The notes: generated from the letters alone by a model not told the origin. 37,598 nucleotides of DNA from a bacterium (GCA_021779995.1 JAJXZP010000276.1:1-37598); one strand, 5' to 3'; shown: positions 16,590-34,253, counted from the first letter of the stretch. Translations and numbers: made by a program.

Positions 16590-16632
16590 TGCGTTTCCCT
16601 CTTTGTTCTGCGGTCTGGCTACTTTTAGTTGC

Positions 16633-16661
16633 TTGACGCATCCAACCAACCGAAGTACAGT
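16633..16661 (+). promoter_or_regulatory. Sigma70-like promoter TTGACG-N17-TACAGT, 6 nt before the GH94 ATG
   Basis: -35 at 16633-16638, -10 at 16656-16661, ATG at 16668. Confidence 0.6.
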
Positions 16662-16667
16662 TGCGTC

Positions 16668-19232
16668 ATGGACTACGGCCACTTCGACGACGCGAGGCGG
16701 GAGTTCGTCATCACCCGACCCGACACTCCCCTCCCCTGGCTCAATTACCTGGGGCAGGACGATTTCTTCGGCCTGTGCACCAACACGGGCGGGGGGTACA
16801 GCTTCTGGAAGGACTCGCGCCTCAGGCGCCTGACCCGCTACCGCTACAACAACATTCCCTACGACCTGGGCGGCCGCTACCTCTACGTCAACGACGACGG
16901 GAGCCTCTGGAACCCGGGCTGGATGCCGGTCAAGGCCGAGCTCGACGCCTACGAGTGCCGCCACGGCCTCGGGTACACGCGCATCCTCGGCGCGAAAGAC
17001 GGCCTGGAAGTGGACGTGCTGTTCTTCGTCCCTCCCGGACAGAACCTCGAGATATGGAAGACGCGGGTCCGGAACAGCTCCGCACGGCGCAAGCGGCCGC
17101 GGCTCTTCTCGTACCAGGAGTTCGCCTTCTACGAGGCCCTCAACGACATGACCAACTACCAGCGCACCTGGTCCATCGGCGAGGTCGAGGTCGAGGGGAA
17201 CGCGATCTACCACACGACCGAGTACCGCGAGCGGCGCAACCACTACACCCTCTTCGCCTGCACGCGCCCCGTCGCGGGCTTCGACACCGACCGCGACGCC
17301 TTCGTCGGGGTGCACGAGGGCCTCCACGAGGCGCGCGTTCCCTTCTCCGGCGCCTGCACCGGATCCCTGGCCTCGGGCTGGAATCCCATCGGCTCGCACC
17401 AGGTCGATCTCGACCTCGCTCCGGGCGAGGAGGCCGTCTTCTCCTTCATCCTGGCCTACGTCGAGCAGACCGAGGCGCCCAAGTTCGAGGCTCCGCGCCG
17501 GGCCAACAAGAGCGCGGGCCGCGCCGTGCTGGCGCGTTATGCGAACGAATCTGCCGTCGACGCCGCCTTCGCCGAGCTCGGCTCGTTCTGGGAGAACCTG
17601 CTCTCGAACTTCCAGGCCGAGCTTCCGGACGAGCACGCCTCGCGCATGCTCAACACCTGGAACCAGTACCAGTGCCTGGCCACCTTCAACCTCTCGCGCT
17701 CGACCTCGATGTACGAGACGGGCATCGGCCGGGGCATGGGCTTCCGCGACTCGAACCAGGACATCCTGGGCTTCGTCCACATGATCCCCGCTCGCGCGCG
17801 CGAGCGGCTCCTCGACATCGCCTCGACCCAGCTTTCGGACGGCACCTGCTACCACCAGTACCAGCCCTTGACGAAAAAGGGCAACGCCGAGGTCGGCGGC
17901 GACTTCTACGACGACCACCTCTGGCTCGTCCTGGCGGTCTGCGCCTACATAAAGGAGACCGGCGACCTCGCCGTGCTGGACGAGCGCTGCGGCTACGCGG
18001 ACAGGAGCTACGCAGGCGCGGGCGCCGAGGAAACCCTCCTCCACCACCTCGAAACCTCCATCGCCTACACCCTGCGCAAGCGCGGCCCGCACGGTCTGCC
18101 CCTCATCGGCCACGCCGACTGGAACGACTGCCTCAACCTCAACTGCTTCTCCACCGAGCCGAACGAGAGCTTCCAGACGGCCGGCGACGCGAAGGGCTCG
18201 GGCGCCGAGTCGGTCATGATCGCGGGGCTCTTCCTCTACGCCGCGCGCGAAATGGCCGAGCTCTACGACTTCATGGGCGAGCCCTCCGGCGCCGAGCGGA
18301 TGCGCGCCGCTCGGCGCGACATGCTGGCCGCGGTCGAGGGCCCGGGCTGGGACGGCGAGTGGTACCGCCGCGCCTACGACGCGGCGGGGAAGCCTGTCGG
18401 CTCGAAAGAGTGCGACGAGGGGAAGATCTACATCGAGAGCCAGGCCTGGTGCGTGCTCGGCGGAGCCGGGTTCGGCGAGGCTGCGGTTGACGCGGCCGAC
18501 GCCTCCGGCGCTTCGCCCGCAGCCGCCGGCGCGCCCCCCCCTGGCGCTGCCGTACCCGGGAAATCCGACCGGGCCCGGCTCGCCATGGAGAGCGTGCACC
18601 GCGAGCTCTTCACGCCCAAGGGCGTCATCCTGCAGCAGCCGGCTTATTCCGCCTATCGCGTCGAGCTCGGCGAGGTGTCGAGCTACCCGCCGGGCGTCAA
18701 GGAGAACGGCGGCATCTTCTGCCACAACAACGCCTGGGTCCACCTCGCCTGGTGCCTCCTCGGGGAGGGCGACCGCGCGCTCGAGTACTATCTCTCGATC
18801 TGTCCGAGCGCCAAACAGGAGGAGATCGAGCTCTACCGCTCCGAGCCCTACGTCTACGCCCAGATGATAGCCGGCCCGGACTCGCCCCTCTTCGGCGAGG
18901 CCAAGAACTCCTGGCTCACCGGCACGGCGGCCTGGACCTTCGTCGCCCTGACCCAGGGCATCCTCGGGATCAAGCCCGACTACCGCGGCCTGCGCGTGCA
19001 GCCCTGCCTGGCGCACGACTGGAAGGGCTTCGCCGCGACGCGGAAATACCGCGGAGCCGTCTATCGGATCGAGGTGCGCAACCCCGAAGGCGTCTGCTCC
19101 GGCCTGCGCTCGGTCTCGATCGACGGGGCGCCGCTGGACGCCGGGCGCCTCGCGGAGGCGGGCGGCCGGGCGGTCGTTCTGCCCTTCTTCCCCTCGGGCG
19201 GCGAACACAGGATAGAAATCCTGATGGGCTGA
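16668..19232 (+). CDS. GH94 glycoside phosphorylase, cellobiose phosphorylase-like
   Basis: MDYGHFDDARREFVITRPDTPLPWLNYLGQDDFFGLCTNTGGGYSFWKDSRLRRLTRYRYNN; HADWNDCLNLN catalytic region; QQPAYSAY. Confidence 0.92.
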   Translation: MDYGHFDDARREFVITRPDTPLPWLNYLGQDDFFGLCTNTGGGYSFWKDSRLRRLTRYRYNNIPYDLGGRYLYVNDDGSLWNPGWMPVKAELDAYECRHGLGYTRILGAKDGLEVDVLFFVPPGQNLEIWKTRVRNSSARRKRPRLFSYQEFAFYEALNDMTNYQRTWSIGEVEVEGNAIYHTTEYRERRNHYTLFACTRPVAGFDTDRDAFVGVHEGLHEARVPFSGACTGSLASGWNPIGSHQVDLDLAPGEEAVFSFILAYVEQTEAPKFEAPRRANKSAGRAVLARYANESAVDAAFAELGSFWENLLSNFQAELPDEHASRMLNTWNQYQCLATFNLSRSTSMYETGIGRGMGFRDSNQDILGFVHMIPARARERLLDIASTQLSDGTCYHQYQPLTKKGNAEVGGDFYDDHLWLVLAVCAYIKETGDLAVLDERCGYADRSYAGAGAEETLLHHLETSIAYTLRKRGPHGLPLIGHADWNDCLNLNCFSTEPNESFQTAGDAKGSGAESVMIAGLFLYAAREMAELYDFMGEPSGAERMRAARRDMLAAVEGPGWDGEWYRRAYDAAGKPVGSKECDEGKIYIESQAWCVLGGAGFGEAAVDAADASGASPAAAGAPPPGAAVPGKSDRARLAMESVHRELFTPKGVILQQPAYSAYRVELGEVSSYPPGVKENGGIFCHNNAWVHLAWCLLGEGDRALEYYLSICPSAKQEEIELYRSEPYVYAQMIAGPDSPLFGEAKNSWLTGTAAWTFVALTQGILGIKPDYRGLRVQPCLAHDWKGFAATRKYRGAVYRIEVRNPEGVCSGLRSVSIDGAPLDAGRLAEAGGRAVVLPFFPSGGEHRIEILMG

Positions 19233-19874: not shown

Positions 19875-21278
19875 TCACCGATCGAGGAATCCGCGCGCGA
19901 AATCGAGAAACCTCTCCACGTCCTTGAAGTCGCTGGCGATGCCGACCGAGATGCGCACCGCGCCCGAGGCCGTCGTCGTGATGCAGTCGCGGAAATCGTC
20001 CATGCTCAGGCGCTGGTCGTGCCCCGGAGCCGTGAAGCAGGAGGTGAGCTCCTCGCTCGAGATACCCAGCGCGATCTCCCCGGCGCCGGGGTTGCAGAAG
20101 CAGCCCGTGCGGAGCGAGATGCCGTGGGTGTTCGCCGCGGCCTCGACGGCGCGGTGGTCGATCGTCTTCCCCTGCGCGTTCGAGAAATTGAGGGCGATCG
20201 TGCCGCCTCGCCTTCGCGTATCGAGCGGTCCGTAGATTTTCACGAGCGGCACGCCCGTCGAGTAGCGCAGCTCGGACAAGTTGTCGAGGAGCCAGCCGGT
20301 CAGGCTCAGCACCCTCTCGTGGACCAGCTCGACGCCGACCGCCTTCAGGTGCCGCAGTCCGATTTCCACCGCGGGAATGCCGAGGTAGTCCACGGTCCCG
20401 TCCTCGAAGGCGGCGGCCCCGTCGGTCAGGTAGTACTTGTCGCCCTGCACCGAGACGACGGTTATCGTGCCGCCGGCGAACCAGGGACGGCGCAGCTTGG
20501 CGAGCGCCTCCTTGCGCGCGATGAGGGCGCCGATGCCGGTCGGGTAGCCGAACATCTTGTAGAACGAGAGCGGCACAAAGTCCGGCTTCCAGCGCGAGAG
20601 ATCGACGACATTGGTCGGTCCGAAGGCGGCTATGTCCACGAGCACGTCCCAGCCGCTCTCGTGGGCGAGTTCGATCCACTCCAAGGGATGCTGGACGCCG
20701 GAGAAGTTGGACTGGGCCGGGTAGGCGAAAAGCTTGCTGGGCGCCTTCGGCGAGGCGCCCAGCTCCGAGCCGAGCCGCTCGCCCGAAATGCGGAGATCGG
20801 GCAGCTCGACGGGGAGGTAGGTGATCGAGGCGCCGCGGGCGCGCGCGAACTCGCGAATGCCGTTGACGGAATTGTGATTGTCGAAGGTGAGCAGGTACCG
20901 GGAGCCGGGCTCGAAGGGATAGGACTCGCCCACGAGCTTCAGCGCGCCCGAGGCGTTCTGCGTGAAGATGACCAGGTACTCTTCGGGCGAGGCGTTGAAG
21001 TATTCGAGCACATACTCCCGCGCGCTCTCGACGAGTTTCGTCGCGGCCTGGGACGAAGGATTGCTCGAGTGCGGATTGCCGAAGACCCCTGCGGCGAGAA
21101 TCCCGCGGTGCGCCTCGATCTGGGACTCGGCGTAGAGGCCGCCGCCCGTGTAATCCAGGTATACGTGGCCCTGGGAGTCGAGCCGCGAATAGTCGGCGGC
21201 GCGCAGGGCGTCGAGCGACGCGGTTTTCGCATAGCCAGGATATCGAGCGATAAAATCTTCCACAGCATGTTTTTTCAC
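19875..21278 (-). CDS. Class V aminotransferase, molybdenum-cofactor-sulfurase (MOCOS) N-domain-like
   Basis: PLP-lysine motif SFYKMFGYPTGIGALI; Cys motif RTGCFCNPGAG. GTG start at 21278 preceded by AAGGAAGGA preferred over 21332. Confidence 0.8.
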   Translation of the reverse strand: MKKHAVEDFIARYPGYAKTASLDALRAADYSRLDSQGHVYLDYTGGGLYAESQIEAHRGILAAGVFGNPHSSNPSSQAATKLVESAREYVLEYFNASPEEYLVIFTQNASGALKLVGESYPFEPGSRYLLTFDNHNSVNGIREFARARGASITYLPVELPDLRISGERLGSELGASPKAPSKLFAYPAQSNFSGVQHPLEWIELAHESGWDVLVDIAAFGPTNVVDLSRWKPDFVPLSFYKMFGYPTGIGALIARKEALAKLRRPWFAGGTITVVSVQGDKYYLTDGAAAFEDGTVDYLGIPAVEIGLRHLKAVGVELVHERVLSLTGWLLDNLSELRYSTGVPLVKIYGPLDTRRRGGTIALNFSNAQGKTIDHRAVEAAANTHGISLRTGCFCNPGAGEIALGISSEELTSCFTAPGHDQRLSMDDFRDCITTTASGAVRISVGIASDFKDVERFLDFARGFLDR

Positions 21279-21377
21279 GTAGTCCTTCCTTTCCTCGGCT
21301 TCAATCCCGCCGATGGCGGCGCGTAGGGTCATCTTCCCGCCGACGCCTATCTGTTCGGCGATTCGGTGTGATGCGCG

Positions 21378-23195
21378 TCATATCTTAAACTTATCCGACG
21401 CCTCCCGCACTTCCTCTATAAGCCTACCGTTTCTGGCGGTTTGGTCGATCGTGGCCATTATCGCCTTGTTGATTTCCTCAGTCCCATGCGTCACCTCGAT
21501 GTTGTTCTGCACGACGACATCGTTCACGCTCTTGAGCCTCTCTACCTGCAGGAGGATCGACGCGTTGCCGGCAGCCATCTCCTGAGCGCCAGAGGATATC
21601 TCACGCGTAATTCCCCGGAGACGGGCGAGAGCGTCGAGTATCTGCCTGCCTCCCTCGCGCTGTTCGTCCATGCTGTCCCCGATCGATTTGACGGCCGCAC
21701 CGAGAGCCGACGATCGGCCCAGGATCTGCTCGAAGGAGCTCACGGCGGCAAGGGAGGCGGAGCGCACCGACTCGATGGACGAAGAAACACGGCCGAGATC
21801 GGCCGATATTTCCCTTGATTGCGAATTGGACTGTTCCGCGAGCTTTCTGATCTCGTCGGCCACCACCGCGAACCCCTTCCCCGATTCCCCGGCGTGGGCC
21901 GCCTCGATGGCCGCGTTCATCGCGAGCAGGTTGGTCCGGTCGGCGATCTCGGTGATCAACCGCGCGGCCTCGTTGAGATTCCGCGAATACCCCACGATGG
22001 CGACGACCGCTTCGTTGACCTCGTCGATCTTGGTCTTTCCCTCGGTTCCGTCCGAGGAGAGCCTATCCGAAGCCTCTGCGGCGCGCCCGACGTTCGCGGC
22101 GACCGACTCAATATTCGCGATCATCTGCTCGACGGAGGCCGAGGACTGCGACACCACAGAGGATTGGCTCGAGATCATCGCGGACAGGGCATCGACGCTC
22201 CGCGCCAGCTCCTCGATCGCGGCCGAAACGCTCCCGACGGCATCCGATAGTTCCACCAGCTGCCCCTTCGTATTGCCGATGTTGGAATTGATCTGGATCA
22301 CCGCGGCGCCCGTCTCTTCCATATTGGCCGACAACCCTTGGCCCTGTTGCTCGAGTTCGGCCAACTTCTCCTTGACAATGCTCACAAGATGATGCAGGTC
22401 GACCACGAGGGTATCGACATACTTCGCGGTGCGACCCAGCTCGTCATGGCGCCGCGAATCGATCCTGACGGTCAAATCCCCGCCTCCGACTTTTTCCACA
22501 GAGCGGAGCAGGAGACCCAGCGGCCTCGTAATGGACCGCGCCGTCACGATCATCACCGCGGCCACTATGGCCAGGGCGAAGGCCGCCACCCCATATACAA
22601 CGAGCGAGGAGACTCGCTCGGCTACCCGCGCGCGCGAGTAGCTAGCATCGCCTCCCTTGATGACGAGCGCCTCGAGCGTGCCGAGGCTCCGTCTCAGGGC
22701 CGTAAAATAGCCGTCGGCAGATCGGGTCAGCGAGAAGAATTGCGAGAAATCGACGCCGGGCTTGACGCTGTCGAGAATCGTGGCGATGACGCCGGAGAAA
22801 TCTCCGTAGGCCGCAGCAAGGTCGGTCATCGCGGCTTGTTCCTCCTGGGACGCGCCCTTCAAACTCTGCAACGACGACAGGAGCGAGTTTCCATCTGCGA
22901 TGTTCTTCTTGATGCCGGCGATCAGGGTCTGCAGGAGGGCGGATCCGTAGCCCTGGCTGCCATAGTTGATAAGCTTGTACATGTCCACCTGCGCTGCGTA
23001 GGCGTGAAGCTCGATCTGGAGGCTCGTTCTGGTCAAGCCTCCACGGACGGCGTATACATCCTCGAGCGAGGCGGAAAAAAGACCGAAGGCCCTGCCCGAT
23101 ACGGCCGCGAGGATGGCCAAGGAGAGCACCGACACCGCGGAGAGGAGAATGAGCTTGCCCAGGATACTCAAGCCGGAAGCCGTGCCTCTCTTCAT
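21378..23195 (-). CDS. Methyl-accepting chemotaxis protein
   Basis: 605 aa; two TM segments, HAMP, signalling hairpin [41 protein letters not shown]. Confidence 0.95.
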
Positions 23196-23749
23196 GGCGA
23201 GCGCCCCTTCGCCCCGGCTCCGAGGCGCAAGGCCGAAAAGCGCGGATCATGGAGAATGATATCAGCGACCTCTTCGGTTTCCTTTTCTATGGCTTTTTCG
23301 TCGGTGCGATAGACGATGTCGGCGGCCGCGTAGTATTTGGGCTTCTCGTTCTCCCACATCAGCCTGATATCGTCTTCGAGGGAAGTATCCTTGTTGACGC
23401 GCGGCCGATCGGCCGCCCGGACCCTGTCGATCAAGGCCTCGACGGAGGCCTCGAAGAGAATGAATATCCCGGTCGGCTTCAGGAGATCGGTGTTCCATTC
23501 GTAGCGGACGGTCCCGCCTCCGAGACACACGATCGCGTCGTTCTGGGCGGCGAAGTGCTTGCAGATGGAATATTCGAGTTCTCGGAACGCGAGCCAGTCT
23601 TTCTCCGCCACGAGCCGATGGAAGCTGTAGCCGAGGCGCCCGTCCATCTCGCGGTCCAAATCCAGGAAGCGGAGCCCCAAGGCTTCGGCGACGCGCTCCC
23701 CGATGGTGGTCTTTCCCGAGCCGATCATGCCGCAAAAGTAGATATTCAT
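23192..23749 (-). CDS. Shikimate-kinase-like P-loop kinase
   Basis: 185 aa; [48 protein letters not shown]; 4-bp overlap with the MCP gene. Confidence 0.75.
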
Positions 23750-23756
23750 CGCGATC

Positions 23757-24227
23757 TCACGTTTCCCTGATGACGAGCCGGCAGAAGCGGTCGCCCTTGC
23801 CTATCGTCTCGTTCAGTTCCATAGAGACCCCATGCGCCGCCGCCCGGCCGCGGTCGCCCTCCATGGCTATATCGCACAACGTATCGATCCTCTCGGGGGC
23901 AAGGCCCATCTCCTTCCAGGCCTCCACGAGGGGGCAGAAATTCATCCGTTGCACCGAGTGATGCTCGCAATATTCGATGTCGGATTCGAAGACGAGGGCT
24001 GAGCCTTTCTCTTCGTGCCTTCGCACCCAATCCCGGTGTGTGAAGGGCTCGGGATCCTTCTTCGCCTTCATCCTTCCGAACTCGAATATCGCCTTTCGGC
24101 AAAGCCGCTCGACCTCGGCCTCCGGCAAGGCTTCCATAAAAGTGTCGTAGAGCAGCGCGAGCCAGACGGCGCGATCCTTGATCGCCGCGCGCACTTTCTC
24201 CACTGTCTTCTCGGTCTTCAAGTCCAT
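23757..24227 (-). CDS. L-2-amino-thiazoline-4-carboxylic acid hydrolase-like protein, paralog 1
   Basis: Internal ATG at 24227 (MDLKTEKTVEKVRAAIKDRAVWLALLYDTF); ERIDTLCDIAMEGDRGRA shared with neighbour. Confidence 0.75.
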   Translation of the reverse strand: MDLKTEKTVEKVRAAIKDRAVWLALLYDTFMEALPEAEVERLCRKAIFEFGRMKAKKDPEPFTHRDWVRRHEEKGSALVFESDIEYCEHHSVQRMNFCPLVEAWKEMGLAPERIDTLCDIAMEGDRGRAAAHGVSMELNETIGKGDRFCRLVIRET

Positions 24228-24244
24228 CGTAAACTCCTCGCCTA

Positions 24245-24706
24245 TCATCTCGCTCGCAGTCCGATTCGGCAGAAGGCGTCGCCCTTGCCTATCGTCTCCC
24301 CGAGGCTCATCTCTATGCCGTGAAAATCCGCGCGCCCGCGGTCGCCTTCCATGGCGATATCGCACAGGGTGTCGATCCTCTCGGGCGGCAGTCCCATGGC
24401 CTTCCACCCGTCCACGAGGGCGCAACGATGGACGCGGTTTTCCGCCCCGCGCTCGTCCCATTCGATCTCCGACTCGAATATCCTCGCCGTCCCCGACTCG
24501 ACGTACTTCTTGACGAGATCTCTCGCGGAAAACGGCGTCGGGTCCTTCGCCGCCTTGTAGCGTCCGTAGGCGTAAATCGCCTTCCGCGCCAAACGCTCTA
24601 TCTCCGCGGCCGGAAGAGCCTCGCCGAATGCGTCCATGACGAGGGCGAGCCACTGGGCACGGTCAGCGACGGCCGAACGTACTTTGGCCAAGGCCTTATC
24701 ATCCAT
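24245..24706 (-). CDS. L-2-amino-thiazoline-4-carboxylic acid hydrolase-like protein, paralog 2
   Basis: 153 aa; GLPPERIDTLCDIAMEGDRGRA and ETIGKGDAFCR shared with paralog 1. Confidence 0.75.
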   Translation of the reverse strand: MDDKALAKVRSAVADRAQWLALVMDAFGEALPAAEIERLARKAIYAYGRYKAAKDPTPFSARDLVKKYVESGTARIFESEIEWDERGAENRVHRCALVDGWKAMGLPPERIDTLCDIAMEGDRGRADFHGIEMSLGETIGKGDAFCRIGLRAR

Positions 24707-26180
24707 GATCGTTCCTCCTCGCAGCCGCTCGACCGGCGTCCAGCAGGGACTCGAATCTAAGCCGGCGCGCGCGATATCGGGCCCTCAAGCTCGCCTCGGG
24801 CTCCCAGACCTCGCCGAAGCCTATGCGCGCCGCGGAGAGTTCGACCAACCCGGCCCCGGTGAGCGCCGATTCCAAGAATAGGGCCGTTCCGGCCATGGTG
24901 GCCTCGTCGCGAAGAGTCAATTCCACCGGTATCCCCGTCGCGTCGGCGCGCATCCTGTTCCAGGCCCCGGACCTGCTCCCTCCGCCGGAGATCGCGATGT
25001 TCCGTGGAGCTATGCCCGAATCGCTCAGGAGCTCGACGAGAGCGGCGAGTCGAAAGCAGGTCGACTCCATCACCGCTCGCAGGATGTGCGCGGGGCCGTG
25101 GCCCGGGCCGAGGCCGAGCAGGCCGCCGCGCGCGTCGGCATCCCAGTAGGGGGAGCGCTCCCCCGTCAGGCCGGGCAGGGCGAAGGGCGCGTCCAGATCG
25201 AAGGGGAGACGTGCAATCTCCTCTTCGCGATTCCGTATCCCCGTTCCGAAGAGCGAACAGAAATAGTCGAGAGCCCCGCAGGAAAGCCCCGTGGCTCCCC
25301 CGACCAGGAAAAGACCGTCAACCATAGCCGGATTCACCGTGAGCCGCATCCCAGGATCGCCCGGTCTCTCGGCGCAGGCGACCATGAGCACGTCGGTTGT
25401 CCCGGATACGAGTGCCGCTACGCCGGGAAGGAGGACTCCCGATCCGTACATCGCCGTCGTGCCGTCGATCGAGCCGAGCGCCACGGGCGTTCCCTCGGGC
25501 AAATGCGCCGCCCGCGCGAACTCTCCGGCGGCCTGCCCCACGAGCGCCGTCGCCGAGGCGATCCCAGGCAGGAAGCCGGGACGAAGACCGACCCTCGCGA
25601 GCAGCGGCTCGTCCTCCGCGGGACCGGCGATATCGACGAGCCCCGTATAACCGGCCGTGGCTCGATCGATCGCCCTGGCCCCGGTCAGGCGCCAGACGAT
25701 GTAATCCTTGAGACTCAAGACCGACGCCAGCCGCTCGAAGCATCCCGCCTCGTGCGTCTCGAGCCAGGGGAGTTTGGGCAGCAGCAGCTCGGGCGAGAGC
25801 CGCCTCGCCGAGCGCGCGTAGAAAACTTCGGGGCCTATCTCGGAGGCGAGCGCCTCGGCTTCGCGGGCCGCCCTCGTGTCGGCCCAGACCATCGCGGGCC
25901 GGAGGGGCCGCCCTTCCCCGTCGAGGAAGACCCAGCCGAGCATCGACGAAATTCCCACACCGTCGGGTCGGGCCCCTCCTGCGGAGTCGATAGCCGCGGA
26001 CGAAGCCCTGAGCACAAGGCGCAGCGCTTCGTCCGCGTCGATCTCGGCGGCGCCGGGCACGCCGCCGGCGCCGTAGCTCACCCGCACACGCTCACGGGCT
26101 TCGGAGATGCGCGCCCCGTCTTCGCGAAGAAGGCAGGCACGGCAGCTGGAGCTTCCGAGATCCACGACGAGAAAATTCAC
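24699..26180 (-). CDS. FGGY-family carbohydrate kinase (xylulokinase-like)
   Basis: GTG start at 26180 (MNFLVVDLGSSSCRACLL); MVWADTRAAREAE; GSIDGTTAMYGSGVLLPG; ISGGGSRSGAWNRMRADATGIPVEL; 10 nt after the upstream stop. Confidence 0.87.
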   Translation of the reverse strand: MNFLVVDLGSSSCRACLLREDGARISEARERVRVSYGAGGVPGAAEIDADEALRLVLRASSAAIDSAGGARPDGVGISSMLGWVFLDGEGRPLRPAMVWADTRAAREAEALASEIGPEVFYARSARRLSPELLLPKLPWLETHEAGCFERLASVLSLKDYIVWRLTGARAIDRATAGYTGLVDIAGPAEDEPLLARVGLRPGFLPGIASATALVGQAAGEFARAAHLPEGTPVALGSIDGTTAMYGSGVLLPGVAALVSGTTDVLMVACAERPGDPGMRLTVNPAMVDGLFLVGGATGLSCGALDYFCSLFGTGIRNREEEIARLPFDLDAPFALPGLTGERSPYWDADARGGLLGLGPGHGPAHILRAVMESTCFRLAALVELLSDSGIAPRNIAISGGGSRSGAWNRMRADATGIPVELTLRDEATMAGTALFLESALTGAGLVELSAARIGFGEVWEPEASLRARYRARRLRFESLLDAGRAAARRNDHG

Positions 26181-26190
26181 GCTCTCGCCT

Positions 26191-27126
26191 TTACGCCCCT
26201 GCGGACTTGGCCGTCTCCACCATCGCGGCGAGGGCGTGAGGGTCGAGCCACGTGGGAATGGAGCATCCGTTGGCGAGAATGAATCGCGAACTCCCGCCAA
26301 GTCGCAGCCCCTCGCGCACATTCTGCCTACAGAACGCGGTCGAGACGCGCGTGACCCGATCGTTGTCGATGCCGCCCATGACCACGCCGGACCACTTAGC
26401 CTTCATCTCGGCGAGGGAGGGATTGCCCGCCGTCCGGTCCTCCCAGCTCATGATCGCGACCGGGAAATCGAGCACATCGTCGGTGTAGATTCTCTCGCCG
26501 TGAATGTGTGCGGTATTCATCCTGCCCAGGCTCGCTATCGCGCGGAACACCTTCATAGCCGCGGGCTTGGCGAACTCGAGAAAGACCCCGCGGTCCAGCT
26601 GGCTCTCGCTGCCGAGCACCGACATGAAGATGCCGCTCGCGCCGAGCGTTAGAGCCTTCTGGCAGTAGGCGATGAGATTGTCCGCCGCCACGTCCAGCGC
26701 CGCCTTCAGCTCCTTAGGGGCCGTCTTCACGAGATTCGCGAGATGCTCCCCGGCGATGCTGCGCTGCAGGCTCTGCCAGGGATCGAAAACCGTGTCGATG
26801 AAATAGGCCTTGCCCTTGAGCCTTTCCGCCACGATCCTGATGGCGGCGAGCTGCTCGTTCCAGTCGCAGGACTCCGGCTCGAAGCGCGCAATCCTCCCCA
26901 GGTCCGCCGCCGACTTGACTTCCTCGAGCCCCTCCGGCATCGGATAGAAATAATCGTTCATCAGCTTCAGGAAATCGAAATCGTAGTGCTCGAACCAGTC
27001 GAGCGCGATCGCCGCGAACTTCTCTCCGCTCGCGTGCTGATTGCCGAAATGGTACCACATCGACATGGGCGGCCGGTCCAGGCTTTTGCCCTGGAGGACC
27101 GCGTCTATTCGCTCGATCTTCGTCAT
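26191..27126 (-). CDS. Uroporphyrinogen decarboxylase-fold protein (UroD/MtaA/CmuA-like)
   Basis: MTKIERIDAVLQGKSLDRPPMSMWYHF typical UroD-family start; NTAHIHGE and NGCSIPTW candidate metal-ligand motifs. Confidence 0.82.
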   Translation of the reverse strand: MTKIERIDAVLQGKSLDRPPMSMWYHFGNQHASGEKFAAIALDWFEHYDFDFLKLMNDYFYPMPEGLEEVKSAADLGRIARFEPESCDWNEQLAAIRIVAERLKGKAYFIDTVFDPWQSLQRSIAGEHLANLVKTAPKELKAALDVAADNLIAYCQKALTLGASGIFMSVLGSESQLDRGVFLEFAKPAAMKVFRAIASLGRMNTAHIHGERIYTDDVLDFPVAIMSWEDRTAGNPSLAEMKAKWSGVVMGGIDNDRVTRVSTAFCRQNVREGLRLGGSSRFILANGCSIPTWLDPHALAAMVETAKSAGA

Positions 27127-27161
27127 TGTTCTCTCCTTAGGATGATCCGGCGCCTTGTTGC

Positions 27162-27875
27162 CTAAGAGACGCCGAGGTAGGCCCTGCGGATGGCGTCGTC
27201 GGTCCTGAGTTCGGAGCAGGGCGCTTCATGGGTGATCTTCCCCGTTTCGAGGATGTAGCCGTATCTCGCCACCTGAAGCGCCAGATTCGCGTTCTGCTCG
27301 ACGAGGAGGATCGTCTTCCCCATTTTGTTTATCTGGACGATGAAATCGAATATCTTGTCGACCATCAGGGGCGCGATGCCCAGACTGGGCTCGTCGAGGA
27401 ACAGTATCTTCGGGTCGGACATGAGTCCCCGCGCGATGGCAAGCATCTGCTGTTCCCCTCCCGAGAGCGTGCCACCCTCCTGCTTCCTTCTCTCCGCGAG
27501 CCGGGGGAAAAGCTCGAAACTGCGCTCGACGAGTTCCCGGACCCGCGCCTTGTCCTTGATCGTATAGGCGCCGACCTGCAGGTTCTCCTCGACGCTGAGT
27601 TCGGAGAATATCTTCCGCCCTTCGGGCACGTGCGATATCCCCCGCGCGACGACTTCCTCGGGCCGCTTGTTGACGACGTCCTCGCCGCCGAACCGGACCG
27701 TTCCTCGGGTGGCCTTCACGACCCCCGAAAGCGTGTTGAGAAGCGTGGTCTTTCCGGCGCCGTTGGCGCCTATTAGCGTCACGAGATCTCCCTGTTCCAG
27801 ACGGATCGAGACGCCCTTGAGCGCGTTGATCTTTCCGTAATGCACCACGAGGCCGTCGACTTCGAGAAGCGCCAA
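27162..27875 (-). CDS. livF: Branched-chain amino acid-type ABC transporter ATP-binding protein
   Basis: GANGAGKTTLLNTLSG; LSGGEQQMLAIARGLMSDPKILFLDEPSLGIAPLMVDKIF. Confidence 0.93.
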   Translation of the reverse strand: MALLEVDGLVVHYGKINALKGVSIRLEQGDLVTLIGANGAGKTTLLNTLSGVVKATRGTVRFGGEDVVNKRPEEVVARGISHVPEGRKIFSELSVEENLQVGAYTIKDKARVRELVERSFELFPRLAERRKQEGGTLSGGEQQMLAIARGLMSDPKILFLDEPSLGIAPLMVDKIFDFIVQINKMGKTILLVEQNANLALQVARYGYILETGKITHEAPCSELRTDDAIRRAYLGVS

Positions 27876-27877
27876 AC

Positions 27878-28639
27878 CTATACCCTCCTCTTCCCCAGAT
27901 AGGCTTCGATGACCCGCTCGTCGTTCTGTATCTCGGCCGCGGTTCCCTCGGCTATCTTGGAACCGTAGTCGAGGACGGTGATTTTGTCGGCGAGGCTCAT
28001 GACCAGTTTCATGTCATGTTCGATGAGGAGCAGGGTGAGACCCTCTCGCCGGAGCTCGCGAATGAACCTGTCGAACTCCTCGGTCTCCGCCGTGTTCATA
28101 CCGGCGGCCGGCTCGTCGAGCAGCAGCAGCTGGGGCCGCGCGGCGAGGGCCCTGGCTATCTCGAGCTTGCGCTGCTCCCCGTACGACAGATTGCGCGCGT
28201 ATTCCTCCCGTTTGTCGACGAGACCGACCTTCTCCAGGATATCCATCACGAAGGCGCGGCCTTCCTTGTCCTCCCGCCTGTAACGAGCGTTGTGCGATAC
28301 CGCGGCCCACACGAAGGACTTGTATTGATTGTGGGTTCCGGTCAGCACATTGTCGAACACCGACATGTAGCCGAACAGACGGATGTTCTGGAAGGTCCTG
28401 GAGATGCCCTTGGCGGATACCTTCTGAGGCGGCAGCCGCTCGATCCGCTCTCCGCGCCAGACGACCTGCCCGGAGTCAGCCGGAATGATGGAGCTGATGT
28501 TGTTGAAGAGCGTGGTCTTGCCAGCGCCGTTGGGCCCTATGATCGCATGCGTCGTGCCTTCCGCGACGGATAGGCTGACCTTGTTCACGGCGACCAGCCC
28601 GCCGAAGCGCTTTTCGAGGTCGCGTATCTCGAGAATCAC
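27878..28639 (-). CDS. livG: Branched-chain amino acid-type ABC transporter ATP-binding protein
   Basis: GPNGAGKTTLFNNISSI; LSYGEQRKLEIARALAARPQLLLLDEPAAGMNTAETEEF. Confidence 0.93.
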   Translation of the reverse strand: MILEIRDLEKRFGGLVAVNKVSLSVAEGTTHAIIGPNGAGKTTLFNNISSIIPADSGQVVWRGERIERLPPQKVSAKGISRTFQNIRLFGYMSVFDNVLTGTHNQYKSFVWAAVSHNARYRREDKEGRAFVMDILEKVGLVDKREEYARNLSYGEQRKLEIARALAARPQLLLLDEPAAGMNTAETEEFDRFIRELRREGLTLLLIEHDMKLVMSLADKITVLDYGSKIAEGTAAEIQNDERVIEAYLGKRRV

Positions 28640-29655
28640 GCCGCACCTCCCCCCGCCTGGCCCTCGGCCGCGGAATCGATCTTCTGCTTCCGGAAATGGA
28701 ATCGGGCCGTCCCCGACGGAGGCACGAACAGTCCCTTGACCCCGGCGAGCCCCTCGGGCTTGACCACGATGACGAGAATGAGGATCGCGCCGTAGAGAAC
28801 CGAGCGGTATTGCGCCAGGAAGCGAAACAGCTCAGGAATCAGCATGAGGATGACCGCGCCGATGACGGGCCCGATGATCGAGCCGGTTCCGCCCAGGGCC
28901 ACCATCGTGAGTATCAGGAAGGACTCGTTCATGCCGAACTGGTCCGCGCTGATGTACCTCACGAAATGCCCGTAGAACGCCCCCGCGAGGCCGGTGAACA
29001 GGCACGATATGGTGAAGGCGAGAACCTTGTAGCCGAAGACCGGGACACCCATCGTGGAAGCGGCCACCTCGTCCTCGCGGATGGCCACCCAGGCCCGTCC
29101 CACCCTGGAGCGATAGAGCCTGGCTATGAGAAATACCACGAGGGCGGCGAATACGAGGACAAGGTAGTAATAGTTGGAAAAGTTCTTGAAGGAAAACCCG
29201 AACAGCGAGGGGACCGGGATGCCGGGGATTCCCATCGGACCCCGGGTGAGCGAGTTCCAGTTCATGATGAGGATCCTGACGATCTCGCCGAAGGCCAGAG
29301 TCCCGAAGACCAGGAAAGTCTGCCTGAGCCGCAGCGTAGCCAGGCCCAGGAATGCGCCTACCATGGCGGTGAAGAGACCAGCCAAGGGCATCGTGACCCA
29401 GAACGGCCAGTGAAGACTCAGGCTGAGAATGGCCGAGGCGTAGGCCCCGATGCCGTAGAAGGCGCCGTGGCCGAGGGAATACATTCCGGTGAAACCGATG
29501 ATCAGGTTGAGGCTGGAGGCGAGCACGACGTAGATGCCGATCATGGTGGCGATTCTGACGAAGTATTGGTTCCCCAGCAGATACGGCAACGCGATGAGGA
29601 GCAACCCTACGCAGAGCTGCAGGACAAGGCGATATTTTCGGGAGATCGAAATCAT
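28636..29655 (-). CDS. livM: Branched-chain amino acid-type ABC transporter permease
   Basis: NLIIGFTGMYSLGHGAFYGIGAYASAIL; ATG at 29655 with GAGGG upstream preferred over GTG at 29667; 4-bp overlap with livG. Confidence 0.92.
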   Translation of the reverse strand: MISISRKYRLVLQLCVGLLLIALPYLLGNQYFVRIATMIGIYVVLASSLNLIIGFTGMYSLGHGAFYGIGAYASAILSLSLHWPFWVTMPLAGLFTAMVGAFLGLATLRLRQTFLVFGTLAFGEIVRILIMNWNSLTRGPMGIPGIPVPSLFGFSFKNFSNYYYLVLVFAALVVFLIARLYRSRVGRAWVAIREDEVAASTMGVPVFGYKVLAFTISCLFTGLAGAFYGHFVRYISADQFGMNESFLILTMVALGGTGSIIGPVIGAVILMLIPELFRFLAQYRSVLYGAILILVIVVKPEGLAGVKGLFVPPSGTARFHFRKQKIDSAAEGQAGGGAA

Positions 29656-29677
29656 TATATCCCTCACTTCCGGCGTG

Positions 29678-30544
29678 TCAGAGTTTCGCTTTCTTCCCGA
29701 GGATCCCGTTCGGGCGGAAGAGCAGGAAGACGATCAACAGGAGATAGCTGACGAAATCCTTGTACCCTGACGAGACAAATTGGACACTCATGTTCTCGAT
29801 GATCCCCAAAAGATAGCCACCGAGGATCGCGCCCGGGATAGAGGTGATGCCGCCGAATACCGCGGCGGTAAATCCCTTGATCCCAGGGACAAATCCCATG
29901 TAGGGATTGATCGCATTGTAGTAGATGGCCGCCAGGACTCCGACGAACGCGGCGAGGGCTCCCGAAAGGGAGAAGGCGATGGAGGTCACCCGGTCCACCT
30001 TGATGCCCATGAGGCCCGCGGTGCGGTAGTCCAGGGCGACGGCGCGGACCCCGAGACCGATCTTGGTGCCGTAGAACAGGAGCTGGAGAAGCAGCATCAT
30101 CGCGGCCGCCAGGGCCACCATGAATATCTGCAGCCACGACACGTTGGCTCCGGCTACCACGAGAGCCGTCGAAGAGTAGAAACTCGGCATGGCCTTCGTC
30201 TGGGCCCCGAAAATAGCGGCGGCGATCTCCTTGAACAGGAACGAGAATCCTATCGTGCAGACCAGGGATGCAATATGAGGCACTCCGCGGAGAGCCTTGA
30301 AGGCCACCTTCTCGACGATCCAGCCGAGCCCCCAACCGACCGCGAAGCCCGCGAGGAGGGCGAGGAAGAGGTTGGGCGTGATGTAACTCACGACGATCCA
30401 GCCGGCATAGGCGCCGAACATGTAAATTTCGCCCATCGCGAAATTGACCAGCTTCAGGAGCCCCCAGACGAGGGAGAAGGAGATCGCGATGAGCGCGAAA
30501 AGGCTGCCTTCAGTAATTCCGTTGACGAGCTGCTGCGTGAACAT
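29678..30544 (-). CDS. livH: Branched-chain amino acid-type ABC transporter permease
   Basis: MFTQQLVNGITEGSLFALIAISFSLVWGLLKLVNFAMGEIYMFGAYAGW; GGGGAG upstream of ATG 30544. Confidence 0.92.
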   Translation of the reverse strand: MFTQQLVNGITEGSLFALIAISFSLVWGLLKLVNFAMGEIYMFGAYAGWIVVSYITPNLFLALLAGFAVGWGLGWIVEKVAFKALRGVPHIASLVCTIGFSFLFKEIAAAIFGAQTKAMPSFYSSTALVVAGANVSWLQIFMVALAAAMMLLLQLLFYGTKIGLGVRAVALDYRTAGLMGIKVDRVTSIAFSLSGALAAFVGVLAAIYYNAINPYMGFVPGIKGFTAAVFGGITSIPGAILGGYLLGIIENMSVQFVSSGYKDFVSYLLLIVFLLFRPNGILGKKAKL

Positions 30545-30563
30545 GCTATCGATTCTCCCCATA

Positions 30564-30593
30564 AGCTTCGGACCCCCGGAAGGGTCCGAAGCT
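30564..30593 (-). other. Intercistronic stem-loop between livK-like and livH-like genes
   Basis: AGCTTCGGACCC (30564-30575) / GGGTCCGAAGCT (30582-30593), perfect 12-bp arms, 6-nt loop. Confidence 0.85.
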
Positions 30594-30615
30594 CGATTCA
30601 AGACCTGACAGGAAA

Positions 30616-31740
30616 CTACTTCAACAGCTTGAAATCGCCGTTCACGACCTGCACGGCCTTATAGCCCTTGATCGCGTCGCGGTTGGGGGTGAAGGTGATG
30701 GTGCCGGTGAGTCCCTGGAAGCCCTTGATTCCAGCCAACGCGTCTCGGATGGCCTGCTTGTCGGTGGAACCGGCGCGCCTGATCGCCTCGGTCAAAATGT
30801 AGATCGCGTCATAGGCGAGGGCCGCGTGGAAATTGGGCGTCGCGCCGAAGCGCTTCTGGAAACCGGTCACGTAGGCTTGCACGCGGGGATCGGTATCCTT
30901 GGCGAAGAAGCTGACGTTGGTGTAGAGGCCGTTCACGGACGAGCCGCCGAGCTTGGTGAGCTCGGTGGAGTAGAGCGAGCTGGGCCCGAGCACGGGGATA
31001 TCCCAGCCCATCTTCTGGCGCTGCAGGCTGATGAGGGCCCCGTCGTTGTACATCGTCGCCATGTAGAGCGCGTCGGGCTTGGACTCCTTGAGCTTGGTGA
31101 GCACCGCGTTGAAGTCCTTCTCTCCCTGGAAGAAGGACTCGACCGCGACGATCTTGCCGCCGATCTTCTCGAAGTTCTCCTTGAAGAACTTCTGAGTGTC
31201 CATGCCCCAGTCGTTGTTGATGAAGAGAATGGCCATCCTCTTGATCTTGAGCTTATTGAAGGCGAGATCGGCCATGAAGGGCTGCTCGTAGGCCTGGGTG
31301 CCGACGATGCTGAAGCTCCAGACCGAGCCCGGAGTGAAGGTCGTGGCGCTCGCAGTGGGCGAGAGCTGCACCATGCCAGCGGCGTCGTAGATCGGCTGTG
31401 AGGCCAGGCAGCAGCTGGAGGTGAAATCGCCGATCTCGGCCACGATGCTCGGATCCGAGGTCCATTTCTGCGCGAGGGAGACGGACTCCTTGGGGTCTCC
31501 CCTCGAATCGCCTACGGAGAGCACATATTTCTTCCCGAGCACCCCGCCTTGGGCGTTGATCTCGTCGATCCCCATCTGGACGGAGCGCTGGAAGTTCACG
31601 CCATACTCGGCGTAGTCGCCCGTCAATGGCGCGGTCAGCGCGATGTGGATAGTGTTGTCTGTTCCGCCGGCAGCCCAAAGTGAAGCACCGCCGACCAGCA
31701 CCAGTACCGCACTCAAGAGCGCGATCATTCTGTTCTGCAT
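30616..31740 (-). CDS. livK: Branched-chain amino acid-type ABC transporter substrate-binding protein
   Basis: Signal peptide; IHIALTAPLTGDYAEYGVNFQRSVQMGIDEINAQGGVLGKKY; AGGAGGGG before ATG. Confidence 0.92.
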   Translation of the reverse strand: MQNRMIALLSAVLVLVGGASLWAAGGTDNTIHIALTAPLTGDYAEYGVNFQRSVQMGIDEINAQGGVLGKKYVLSVGDSRGDPKESVSLAQKWTSDPSIVAEIGDFTSSCCLASQPIYDAAGMVQLSPTASATTFTPGSVWSFSIVGTQAYEQPFMADLAFNKLKIKRMAILFINNDWGMDTQKFFKENFEKIGGKIVAVESFFQGEKDFNAVLTKLKESKPDALYMATMYNDGALISLQRQKMGWDIPVLGPSSLYSTELTKLGGSSVNGLYTNVSFFAKDTDPRVQAYVTGFQKRFGATPNFHAALAYDAIYILTEAIRRAGSTDKQAIRDALAGIKGFQGLTGTITFTPNRDAIKGYKAVQVVNGDFKLLK

Positions 31741-31784: not shown

Positions 31785-31806
31785 GTTCCTACGAGTCAAA
31801 AACGAT

Positions 31807-31839
31807 ATGTTATTTACATTTTTGTTGCTTTTATAACAT
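31807..31839 (-). promoter_or_regulatory. Candidate operator ATGTTAT-N19-ATAACAT
   Basis: Perfect 7-bp inverted half-sites just downstream of the predicted start site. Confidence 0.55.
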
Positions 31840-31850
31840 TTCTATGGCAG

Positions 31851-31879
31851 ATTATAAGGACGGTCCTCGCTCTTGTCAA
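31851..31879 (-). promoter_or_regulatory. Perfect-consensus sigma70 promoter TTGACA-N17-TATAAT of the livK-led cluster
   Basis: Minus-strand TTGACA at 31874-31879, TATAAT at 31851-31856, A8 tract upstream. Confidence 0.9.
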
Positions 31880-32002
31880 CATTTTTTTTGCCCGCAGGAC
31901 CGGAGATCGGCGGAGCGCTCTGACTCGGACCGGAGCCCGTGCAGAATATTGCGACGAAGGGGCTTATACTCAGGCTCCATACGCTCAACTCAGGAGTTTG
32001 CC

Positions 32003-32776
32003 TTGGCCGACAGCGAGAAAAGGAGAAGCCTGATCCAGCAGTACCTCGTGCAGAATGGAGCATGCTCGATTTCGGCGCTGGCAAGCCGCCTGGAAGTATC
32101 GACGATGACGATACGGCGAGACATGGAATTGCTCGCAGGCAAGGGGCTTGTCCGGGTCTACCATGGAGTCGTCGTTCCCCTCAAAGAGGAGGCCACCTCG
32201 CTTCAGGAGTACGCGCTTACGAAGGCCGAGGCCGTGCATGTGCAGGAAAAACTCCGAATCGCAAGGGCTGCCGCATCCATGGTCGAGCCGGAGGACATTC
32301 TCTTCATCGACGGAGGCTCTACCGCGGCCCTGGTGGCGCGCGAGCTTCCGCGCGGCATCCCTCTCACGATCATCTGCCTGAGTCTCAACGCATTTCTCAA
32401 TGTCGCAGGCAATCCCGCGGCAGAAGTCATTCTGGCCGGAGGGATTTACCACGAAGAAACCCATATCTTCGAAGGTCCCGAGAGCATCGAGCTCATCAGA
32501 CGATACCGAGCGACCAAGGCCTTTGTCTCGGCCAACGGCTTCCGCGAAGACCTCGGGGTGACCTGTTCCAACAATTATCTGCTGTCGATCAAGCAAGCCG
32601 TGCTGCGCTCGAGCATCCAGAAGATACTGGTCGCCGATTCTTCCAAGTTCGGGAAAGTCAATTCCTGCTATTTCGCGGATCTTTCGGATTTCAGCGAACT
32701 GATCACGGACGACGGCCTGCCCGATTCGGCGTTGCAATCGATTCGAGACTCGGGTACCAAAGTGCAGGCCGTCTAG
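32003..32776 (+). CDS. DeoR-family transcriptional regulator
   Basis: TTG start preceded by CAGGAG; SEKRRSLIQQYLVQNGACSISALASRLEVSTMTIRRDMELLAGKGLVRVYHGV; C-terminal sensor domain FIDGGSTAALVAREL. Confidence 0.9.
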   Translation: MADSEKRRSLIQQYLVQNGACSISALASRLEVSTMTIRRDMELLAGKGLVRVYHGVVVPLKEEATSLQEYALTKAEAVHVQEKLRIARAAASMVEPEDILFIDGGSTAALVARELPRGIPLTIICLSLNAFLNVAGNPAAEVILAGGIYHEETHIFEGPESIELIRRYRATKAFVSANGFREDLGVTCSNNYLLSIKQAVLRSSIQKILVADSSKFGKVNSCYFADLSDFSELITDDGLPDSALQSIRDSGTKVQAV

Positions 32777-32951: not shown

Positions 32952-34253
32952 ATGACCGCCCTCATAGAATCGCTCAACCTGGAGTCCAAGCGTCGCCATT
33001 TCCGCGCCTCGTACTTCTGGGTGATCGGCGTGTTCTACCTGTTCCAGGGATTCTACCTCTCGGGGATCATGACCTACGGCAGCGTCAGGATGTCCGAATG
33101 GGCGGTGCCGGTCACGACCCAGACCCTCATCAAGACCCTCGTCGCCCTGCCGACCTTCTTAAAAATGTTCTCGGGCCTCTTGAGCGACCGCGTTCCCTTG
33201 GGGCGGCTGGGGCGGCGCAAGCCCTACATTTTCCTCGGCCTCATCTTCTACGTCCCGGCCTTCGCGATCCTGGCCTTCCACGACGCCTACGACGCCCTGT
33301 GGATCGCCTCGCTCATGGCCGTCATGGCCGGTTGGATGCTGGTGGACGGCACGATGGACGGCTTCGCGGTGGACATCACGCCCGACGAATTGCAGGGCAG
33401 CTTCCAGGGCGTGCACAGCGCCACGCGCATGGTGGGCTTCGCGGCCGGCTCGGTGCTCATCCCGCTGATCGGCCCCCGGCTCGGCTGGACGACGACGGTG
33501 GCGCTCATGGCCTTCGCCGCCCTCGTGCAGACCGCCAGCGCCTTCTTCTTCCGCGAGCCGAAGGTGACTCGCGCGGACCTGAAGACCCTGATGCCCCTGG
33601 GCGCGGTGCTTAAAGAAGCCTTCGGCGGCTCGAAGCCCTGGATGGGCATTCTCTTCATGCTCAGCCTGACCGCCGTGACGGCCATCCCGGGTGTGGCCCA
33701 GCTGTACATCCTGACCGACCTGGGCTGGGGCCGCGATCCCGGGCTGCTCAAGCTCTACGGCTTTCTCAACCTGGCTCTGTTCGGCGGGGCCGCCCTGGGC
33801 TCCTTCGTCGTCGGACGGATCATGAGCACGAGGACCTATTCGATGCCCTTCTACGCGCTCACGACGGTCGCCTACTGGATCCTCATGCTGCCCTGGCTGC
33901 TCGTCGCCCGATCGGGAGGCGGCGTTCCGCTCATCTTCGCGTGCCAGTTTCTGTCCGGCATCGGCTACGGTCTGGGGAACGTGATCGTCTTCACGATCGC
34001 CATGCGCCTCTGCCCGGCCTCCATCGAGGGCTTCATGTTCTGCACCTTCATGTCTTTCTCCAACATCGGCGAGTACGCCCTCGGGGCGAACGTCATCACC
34101 GGCCTCGCGGGCTCGATGGGCGGCATCATTCCTTCCTTCTTCTCGCTGCTTCCCTTCTCCCTGCTCGCGCTCCTGTTCGTGGGCCTGATCATCCGGGCAT
34201 TGAAAAGGGGCGCCGCCCCTCTCGGAACGGCGCCCCTGCTCGCGCGGGACTGA
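32952..34253 (+). CDS. MFS transporter (AmpG/GPH-like)
   Basis: 433 aa; LLSDRVPLGRLGRRKPYIFLGLIFY; SD-like AGGAG before ATG. Confidence 0.87.
   Translation: MTALIESLNLESKRRHFRASYFWVIGVFYLFQGFYLSGIMTYGSVRMSEWAVPVTTQTLIKTLVALPTFLKMFSGLLSDRVPLGRLGRRKPYIFLGLIFYVPAFAILAFHDAYDALWIASLMAVMAGWMLVDGTMDGFAVDITPDELQGSFQGVHSATRMVGFAAGSVLIPLIGPRLGWTTTVALMAFAALVQTASAFFFREPKVTRADLKTLMPLGAVLKEAFGGSKPWMGILFMLSLTAVTAIPGVAQLYILTDLGWGRDPGLLKLYGFLNLALFGGAALGSFVVGRIMSTRTYSMPFYALTTVAYWILMLPWLLVARSGGGVPLIFACQFLSGIGYGLGNVIVFTIAMRLCPASIEGFMFCTFMSFSNIGEYALGANVITGLAGSMGGIIPSFFSLLPFSLLALLFVGLIIRALKRGAAPLGTAPLLARD
34206..34237. other. GC-rich stem-loop inside the 3' end of the MFS gene
   Basis: AGGGGCGCCG (34206-34215) / CGGCGCCCCT (34228-34237), perfect 10-bp arms, 12-nt loop. 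Confidence 0.6.

Follow-up and report, generated by a model that had tools for sequence, protein, structure and literature searches.

A recurrent operon joining a Liv-type importer to kinases, ATC_hydrolase-family proteins and a UroD-like protein in a spirochaete genome

Several described systems each resemble a part of the locus analyzed here. These include the LivKHMGF (HAAT) branched-chain amino acid importer, the Pseudomonas pathway that converts L-2-amino-thiazoline-4-carboxylate (L-ATC) to L-cysteine through an L-ATC hydrolase and a carbamoyl-cysteine amidohydrolase, the MtaA/CmuA methylcobamide:coenzyme M methyltransferases, the shikimate kinase AroK, and the L-cysteine desulfidase (CyuA/CdsB) genes. 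The locus itself is a run of minus-strand genes on a 37,598-nucleotide stretch (GCA_021779995.1, JAJXZP010000276.1:1-37598; hereafter the window) from a spirochaete metagenome-assembled genome (MAG). It encodes a Liv-type ABC importer, a UroD-like protein, an FGGY kinase, two ATC_hydrolase-family (ATCH) proteins, a shikimate-kinase-like (SKI) protein, a methyl-accepting chemotaxis protein (MCP), and a class-V pyridoxal phosphate (PLP) enzyme. The first-pass annotation did not recognize this combination as a described pathway, and in the literature searched we likewise found no description of the gene set. Our preferred reading, held tentatively and given slightly less than an even chance, is that about 12 genes are transcribed together here and serve to take up and break down one small sulfur-carrying carboxylate, most likely an N-blocked or ring-bound cysteine on a hydroxylated carbon chain.

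Recurrence of the gene set and organization of the locus

An ATCH alignment scan of 84,980 genomes yielded 80 loci, or 76 after the removal of four near-duplicates; these counts rest on a single conserved peptide pattern and are affected by where contigs end. The set of Liv, FGGY, ATCH, SKI, and UroD genes was detected in four spirochaete MAGs (L023, L024, L025, and L027), to the extent that the contigs cover it, in an order unlike that of the window; contig ends truncate L024 and L025. L027 additionally carries a PfkB kinase, a second UroD, a GntR regulator, and a second ATCH. Identity of these spirochaete relatives to the window was 54-66% for the Liv proteins, UroD, ATCH_b, and SKI, and 47-51% for ATCH_a. 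The neighborhood comparison proposed in the first-pass annotation (ATCH with FGGY, UroD, and LivK across genomes) was found to return a conserved but reordered gene set. An adjacent ATCH-SKI pair was also identified in three Rhodospirillaceae MAGs and in one MAG labelled Nitrospiraceae. When loci were counted as Liv-linked if three or more Liv genes lay on the same strand no more than 10 kb away, 27 of the 76 qualified, and 23 of these 27 carried a sugar-type kinase (DhaK, FGGY, or PfkB), mostly DhaKL; DhaK was present in 2 of the 49 ATCH loci without Liv genes. Culturable carriers of the DhaKL form include Anaerotruncus colihominis and Maledivibacter halophilus. A deltaproteobacterial locus (L026) encodes a close ATCH, and no operon was seen there. 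Four loci from Treponema socranskii and a relative (L015, L016, L036, and L037) lack Liv genes; there an ATCH-UroD pair is accompanied by an NhaC-like transporter, a GntR regulator, amidohydrolases, and M20 peptidases.

Within the window, eleven minus-strand open reading frames (ORFs) span positions 21378-31740, with overlaps of 4 bp (livM/livG), 8 bp (kinase/ATCH), and 4 bp (SKI/MCP) and gaps of 14, 10, 2, 35, 10, 17, and 7 bp elsewhere. The eleven-gene cluster and its overlaps are therefore present as the first-pass annotation described them; its end at 21378 did not hold, as the co-directional run continues after 45 bp into a twelfth gene, for the PLP enzyme, which is linked to the system in a relative. 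Upstream of livK, a minus-strand promoter at 31851-31879 (TTGACA-17-TATAAT) matches the sigma-70 consensus at 12 of 12 positions, where shuffled sequences average 2.5 sites scoring at least 9 of 12. Just downstream of this promoter is an inverted repeat (31804-31842; ATGTTAT/ATAACAT cores, 10-nt arms that are 90% complementary, 19-nt spacer), a candidate operator, and a divergent DeoR-family regulator lies on the plus strand at 31997-32776 (DeoRC, 1.2e-45; HTH_DeoR), with its true start near 31997. This layout of promoter, inverted repeat, and divergent DeoR gene suggests a single regulated transcript. A second promoter-like site (29681-29654, within the livH/livM junction) was judged to have arisen by chance.

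A chance run of unrelated same-strand genes has nothing to recommend it beyond the unusual combination and is already contradicted by the conserved neighborhoods. In nine of these genomes, totaling about 38 Mb, there were 59 matches to Liv-type binding proteins, or about 1.6 per Mb; at this density, chance alone should place one in about 2 of 76 windows (20 kb each), compared with the 27 seen. The swapping of modules among relatives likewise argues against this explanation, which we regard as highly improbable. Because the same gene set recurs in changed order and a 12/12 promoter precedes livK, the arrangement is well beyond chance, and the operon-like unit proposed earlier is upheld.

The importer, ATCH, and UroD-like proteins

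The importer genes, all on the minus strand, encode the periplasmic substrate-binding protein LivK (30616-31740; PF13458, 3.5e-61; 57-66% identity to LivK of related operons), the permeases LivH (29678-30601; 60-62% identity to LivH of L023 and L027) and LivM (28636-29667; 58-66% to LivM of the same two loci), and the ATPases LivG (27878-28639; 59-62% to relatives) and LivF (27162-27875; 63-66%). Every protein scanned against Pfam exceeded the curated cut-off of its family, with LivF, LivG, LivM, and LivH named by homology to relatives; compared by eye with these, the LivH start may be internal, near 30544. By alignment, the window LivK has a Ser where four solved relatives (4gnr, 4n0q, 3ip5, and 3td9) carry Asp or Glu, at a position taken to be the contact for the alpha-ammonium group in LIV-binding proteins. 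None of 28 aligned ATCH-linked LivKs has an acid at this position, while about 10 unlinked LivKs of the same genomes retain it; the acid is also missing from some unlinked LivKs, such that its loss characterizes the linked set without being confined to it. We infer that the LivK ligand is a carboxylate without a free alpha-amino group. The identification of a Liv importer was confirmed, but the usual assignment of such importers to amino acids is weakened because this LivK lacks the acidic residue of its amino-acid-binding relatives.

The two ATCH proteins are encoded in tandem on the minus strand by ATCH_a (24245-24706; PF14196, 4.8e-13) and ATCH_b (corrected to 23757-24227; 3.1e-14), with scores of 50.6 and 54.4 bits against a curated cut-off of 28.1. 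Both belong to a family of predicted V4R/Bet3-type fold, and the cysteines C94, C114, and C145 were invariant among nine sequences; the likeness of the family to V4R and its three cysteines were already noted (PMC5847659). A PDB sequence search with ATCH gave no match. The AlphaFold2 (AF2) model of ATCH_a (mean predicted local distance difference test score [pLDDT] of 90.9) was matched by Foldseek to TRAPPC3 and to the sensor domains of MopR, PoxR, and DmpR. These sensor matches, together with a related domain found in archaeal signalling proteins (PMC5847659), would fit an alternative in which the ATCHs are V4R-type ligand sensors or carriers, not enzymes, and the unit couples transport, sensing, and chemotaxis. 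We consider this improbable, as the ATCHs are free-standing and paired with metabolic genes, tightly with SKI in alphaproteobacteria. In the tree, ATCH_a and ATCH_b are sisters (support 95/78), with ATCH_a evolving faster, and the pair most likely arose by tandem duplication within the window's lineage. Their clade includes the SKI-linked ATCHs, and the DhaKL-linked ATCHs form a separate one; both types were observed in one operon of L027 (9968-11457).

The UroD/MtaA-superfamily protein (26191-27126, minus strand; PF01208, 1.9e-25) is not HemE. It scored 22.1 bits against the HemE equivalog TIGR01464 (cut-off 302.95) and 42.6 bits against the MtaA/CmuA subfamily TIGR01463 (cut-off 235.4). Its putative Zn ligands are H207, H209, and C288, of which H207 and C288 are invariant across a 13-sequence alignment; the window's clade has H-I-H...C (H207-x-H209...C288), while most other ATCH-linked UroDs have H-I-C...C. 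A PDB search by sequence gave no match, and the AF2 model (pLDDT 92.3) matched structures of HemE and of a methyltransferase from Methanosarcina mazei (4AY7/4AY8). No ortholog above 30% identity was detected among the 30 same-family genomes searched; therefore, the exact version of the operon found in the window is sporadic. UroD-family matches number 14 in the window genome and are spread over several contigs; one of them (C280) scores 449 bits over nearly the whole profile and could be HemE.

The structural match to 4AY7/4AY8 and the H-x-[CH]...C pattern raise the possibility of methyl-group catabolism, in which UroD, as a Zn methyltransferase of the MtaA type, would remove a methyl group from the imported substrate with the help of a corrinoid protein encoded elsewhere. 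By Pfam, no corrinoid partner is present in the operon, and the genome has two B12-binding_2 matches elsewhere which, with its numerous UroD-family members, would be compatible with this scheme. However, neither a corrinoid protein nor a reactivase was found in the operon or the related operons inspected, the score falls far under the MtaA cut-offs, and HxH replaces HxC in the window's clade; we view this explanation as distinctly unlikely.

Kinases, sulfur-handling partners, and a proposed pathway

The FGGY kinase (FGGY_N/FGGY_C; 24699-26180, minus strand) probably starts at the GTG at 26180 rather than at 26321. It scored under every equivalog cut-off, the best being XylB at 218.6 against 380.25. 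Among the operon genes it is the fastest diverging (36-37% identity of relatives to the window's protein, with L023 and L027 sharing 41% with each other), a pattern that would fit a specificity differing among relatives. The SKI-like P-loop kinase (23192-23749, minus strand; PF01202, 1.8e-32) is not a canonical shikimate kinase, scoring 88.2 bits against the AroK equivalog cut-off of 204. Its clade has GGGTVRYxWN and RPRVN motifs and has lost the Arg before PxY, presumably R136 of the Mycobacterium tuberculosis enzyme. This shikimate-carboxylate Arg is a Glu in the window protein, is replaced by other residues across the clade, and is kept in AroK-type sequences. In three related genomes, a distinct SKI gene adjoins that for chorismate synthase (AroC); neither AroC nor another SKI gene was found in the window genome, which is 88.6% complete, such that absences there (these two and CyuA) are not proof. 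A role for the SKI-like gene in supplying shikimate kinase was considered and dropped, given that the separate SKI of relatives adjoins AroC and AroC was not found here. Solo SKI-clade kinases with 53-54% identity to the window SKI occur beside a ROK-like regulator in two further genomes (L117 and L118, in G324 and G325), with no ATCH nearby.

Elsewhere, a simple motif match recovered the expected catalytic Asp and His patterns in nearly every DhaK of the ATCH loci, and a PfkB of one relative scores above the ribokinase cut-off. FGGY, DhaKL, and PfkB kinases and DeoR regulators are typical of sugar and polyol use, and with that PfkB score they favor a rival scheme: a polyol or sugar-acid catabolic operon free of sulfur chemistry, in which the FGGY kinase (DhaKL elsewhere) is the core, DeoR senses a sugar phosphate, and both ATCH and UroD have diverged toward unrelated functions. 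Liv-type importers are unusual for sugars, however, and genes for CyuA, cysteine-desulfurase-like, and CysK-like proteins recur beside ATCH; we judge this scheme unlikely, though it is the strongest of the competitors. CyuA homologs were identified in 24 of the 76 ATCH loci, aligning over their full length to E. coli CyuA at 30-63% identity, with the four cysteines conserved in the 14 checked.

The twelfth gene (19875-21332, minus strand; PF00266) encodes a cysteine-desulfurase-like class-V enzyme whose PLP Lys and catalytic Cys both align with those of E. coli SufS and whose nearest solved relatives are cysteine desulfurases; against the SufS-like subfamily TIGR01979 it scored 127.1 (cut-off 475.1). 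At the E-value limit, matches were obtained in 3 of 197 genomes of the order, its own included. Of the other two, one lies in a genome of the same family (L165, G307), within an operon ordered UroD-GntR-ATCH-LivK-LivH-LivM-LivG-LivF-DhaK-DhaL-PLP, where the ortholog is 68% identical and has a 4-bp overlap with the dhaL 3′ end; this places the PLP enzyme within the system and shows that the kinase module has been exchanged. In the second (L166, G319), no ATCH or Liv gene is nearby.

Taken together, the partner genes that recur suggest a carboxylate that lacks a free alpha-amino group and has both a phosphorylatable part and a cysteine-yielding part. A phosphorylatable N- or S-containing compound, as guessed earlier, fits both the CyuA and cysteine-desulfurase-like partners and the kinase modules of most Liv-type versions. 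The substrate, each reaction, the reaction order, and the regulation that we propose are drawn from gene order, co-direction, conserved linkage, predicted folds, and residues kept or lost in sequence alignments. LivKHMGF would import the substrate; the FGGY kinase would phosphorylate its hydroxylated part, with the SKI-like kinase acting on the same or a second hydroxyl, a job that may be done by DhaK-DhaL or ribokinase-like PfkB in related operons. The two ATCHs, with their V4R/Bet3 fold and three cysteines, would open or process a thiazoline-like or N-blocked cysteine part, and the UroD-like protein may act on the thiol or thioether through a Zn-type site. The PLP enzyme would strip sulfur from the released cysteine, as CyuA may in other lineages, and DeoR would repress the unit until a phosphorylated product appears, while the MCP would add chemotaxis. 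The predicted products are cysteine and a polyol or ketose in phosphorylated form. Candidate substrates include thiazoline- or thiazolidine-type adducts, a class that the evidence does not single out.

Several observations weigh against the preferred reading: (i) CyuA was not found in the incomplete window genome; (ii) ORF and Pfam analysis of the 12 operon genes revealed no carbamoyl-cysteine amidohydrolase; (iii) ATCH also adjoins peptide and polar amino acid importers without kinases; (iv) the hydrolase annotation of PF14196 comes from very little biochemistry, with one enzyme cited (PMC5847659), and the fold is shared with sensor domains; and (v) the scheme does not account for a SKI-like kinase in addition to FGGY.

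A broader proposal, which we put forward as speculative and rather doubtful, is that this operon and its DhaKL relatives form an undescribed modular pathway across anaerobes for cysteine adducts with hydroxylated carbonyl compounds (e.g., 2-polyhydroxyalkyl thiazolidine carboxylates), in which different sugar parts go with different kinases and different lineages with different sulfur-releasing enzymes (CyuA or PLP desulfurase). If the pathway is as proposed, many gut and sediment anaerobes would have in common a so far overlooked way to import a sulfur-containing metabolite and free its sulfur and carbon, and a function would be provided for the large ATC hydrolase family, whose name derives from scant biochemistry, for non-HemE UroD-like proteins, and for the SKI-like clade. 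As the same set occurs with swapped kinases, comparing the variants makes the question of substrate directly testable.

The MCP (21378-23195, minus strand; PF00015 and PF00672, with 4HB-like sensor, HAMP, and signalling domains) overlaps SKI by 4 bp. It was absent from every related operon examined and, on this distribution, is a lineage-specific, accessory addition; of the suggestion that an MCP couples chemotaxis to the substrate, its place in the cluster was borne out and a conserved part in the system was not. Beyond the operon, the plus strand encodes an MFS/BT1-like transporter after DeoR (32952-34253), divergent from the operon and with no link seen to the ATCH system, a GH94-family phosphorylase (16629-19232; PF17167 and PF06165) past the operon 3′ end, and a 1610-residue protein with HAMP and SpoIIE domains (9151-13983).

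Comparison with described systems

The window shares with LivKHMGF/HAAT all five components in the order KHMGF, and the carboxylate-binding Ser/Thr segments look retained in its LivK; it differs by the Ser in place of the ammonium-binding acid and by the linkage to kinases and ATCH. To the Pseudomonas L-ATC route it is related through the ATC_hydrolase family and the cysteine-handling enzymes nearby; however, that route has neither kinases nor UroD, while the window lacks the carbamoyl-cysteine amidohydrolase and its ATCH function is predicted only. The UroD-like protein has the superfamily fold of MtaA/CmuA and a putative metal site of the pattern His-X-(Cys/His)...Cys, but falls far under their curated cut-offs, has HxH for HxC, and is encoded in an operon without a corrinoid partner. 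The SKI-like protein retains the P-loop kinase features of AroK (Walker A, DxD-region Asp, GGG motif, and FRxxE Arg) and is set apart by the lost Arg before PxY and by forming its own clade. Finally, with respect to CyuA/CdsB, CyuA homologs are frequent ATCH neighbors in Bacillota, whereas the window has at its operon end the class-V PLP desulfurase-like enzyme in place of a detectable CyuA.

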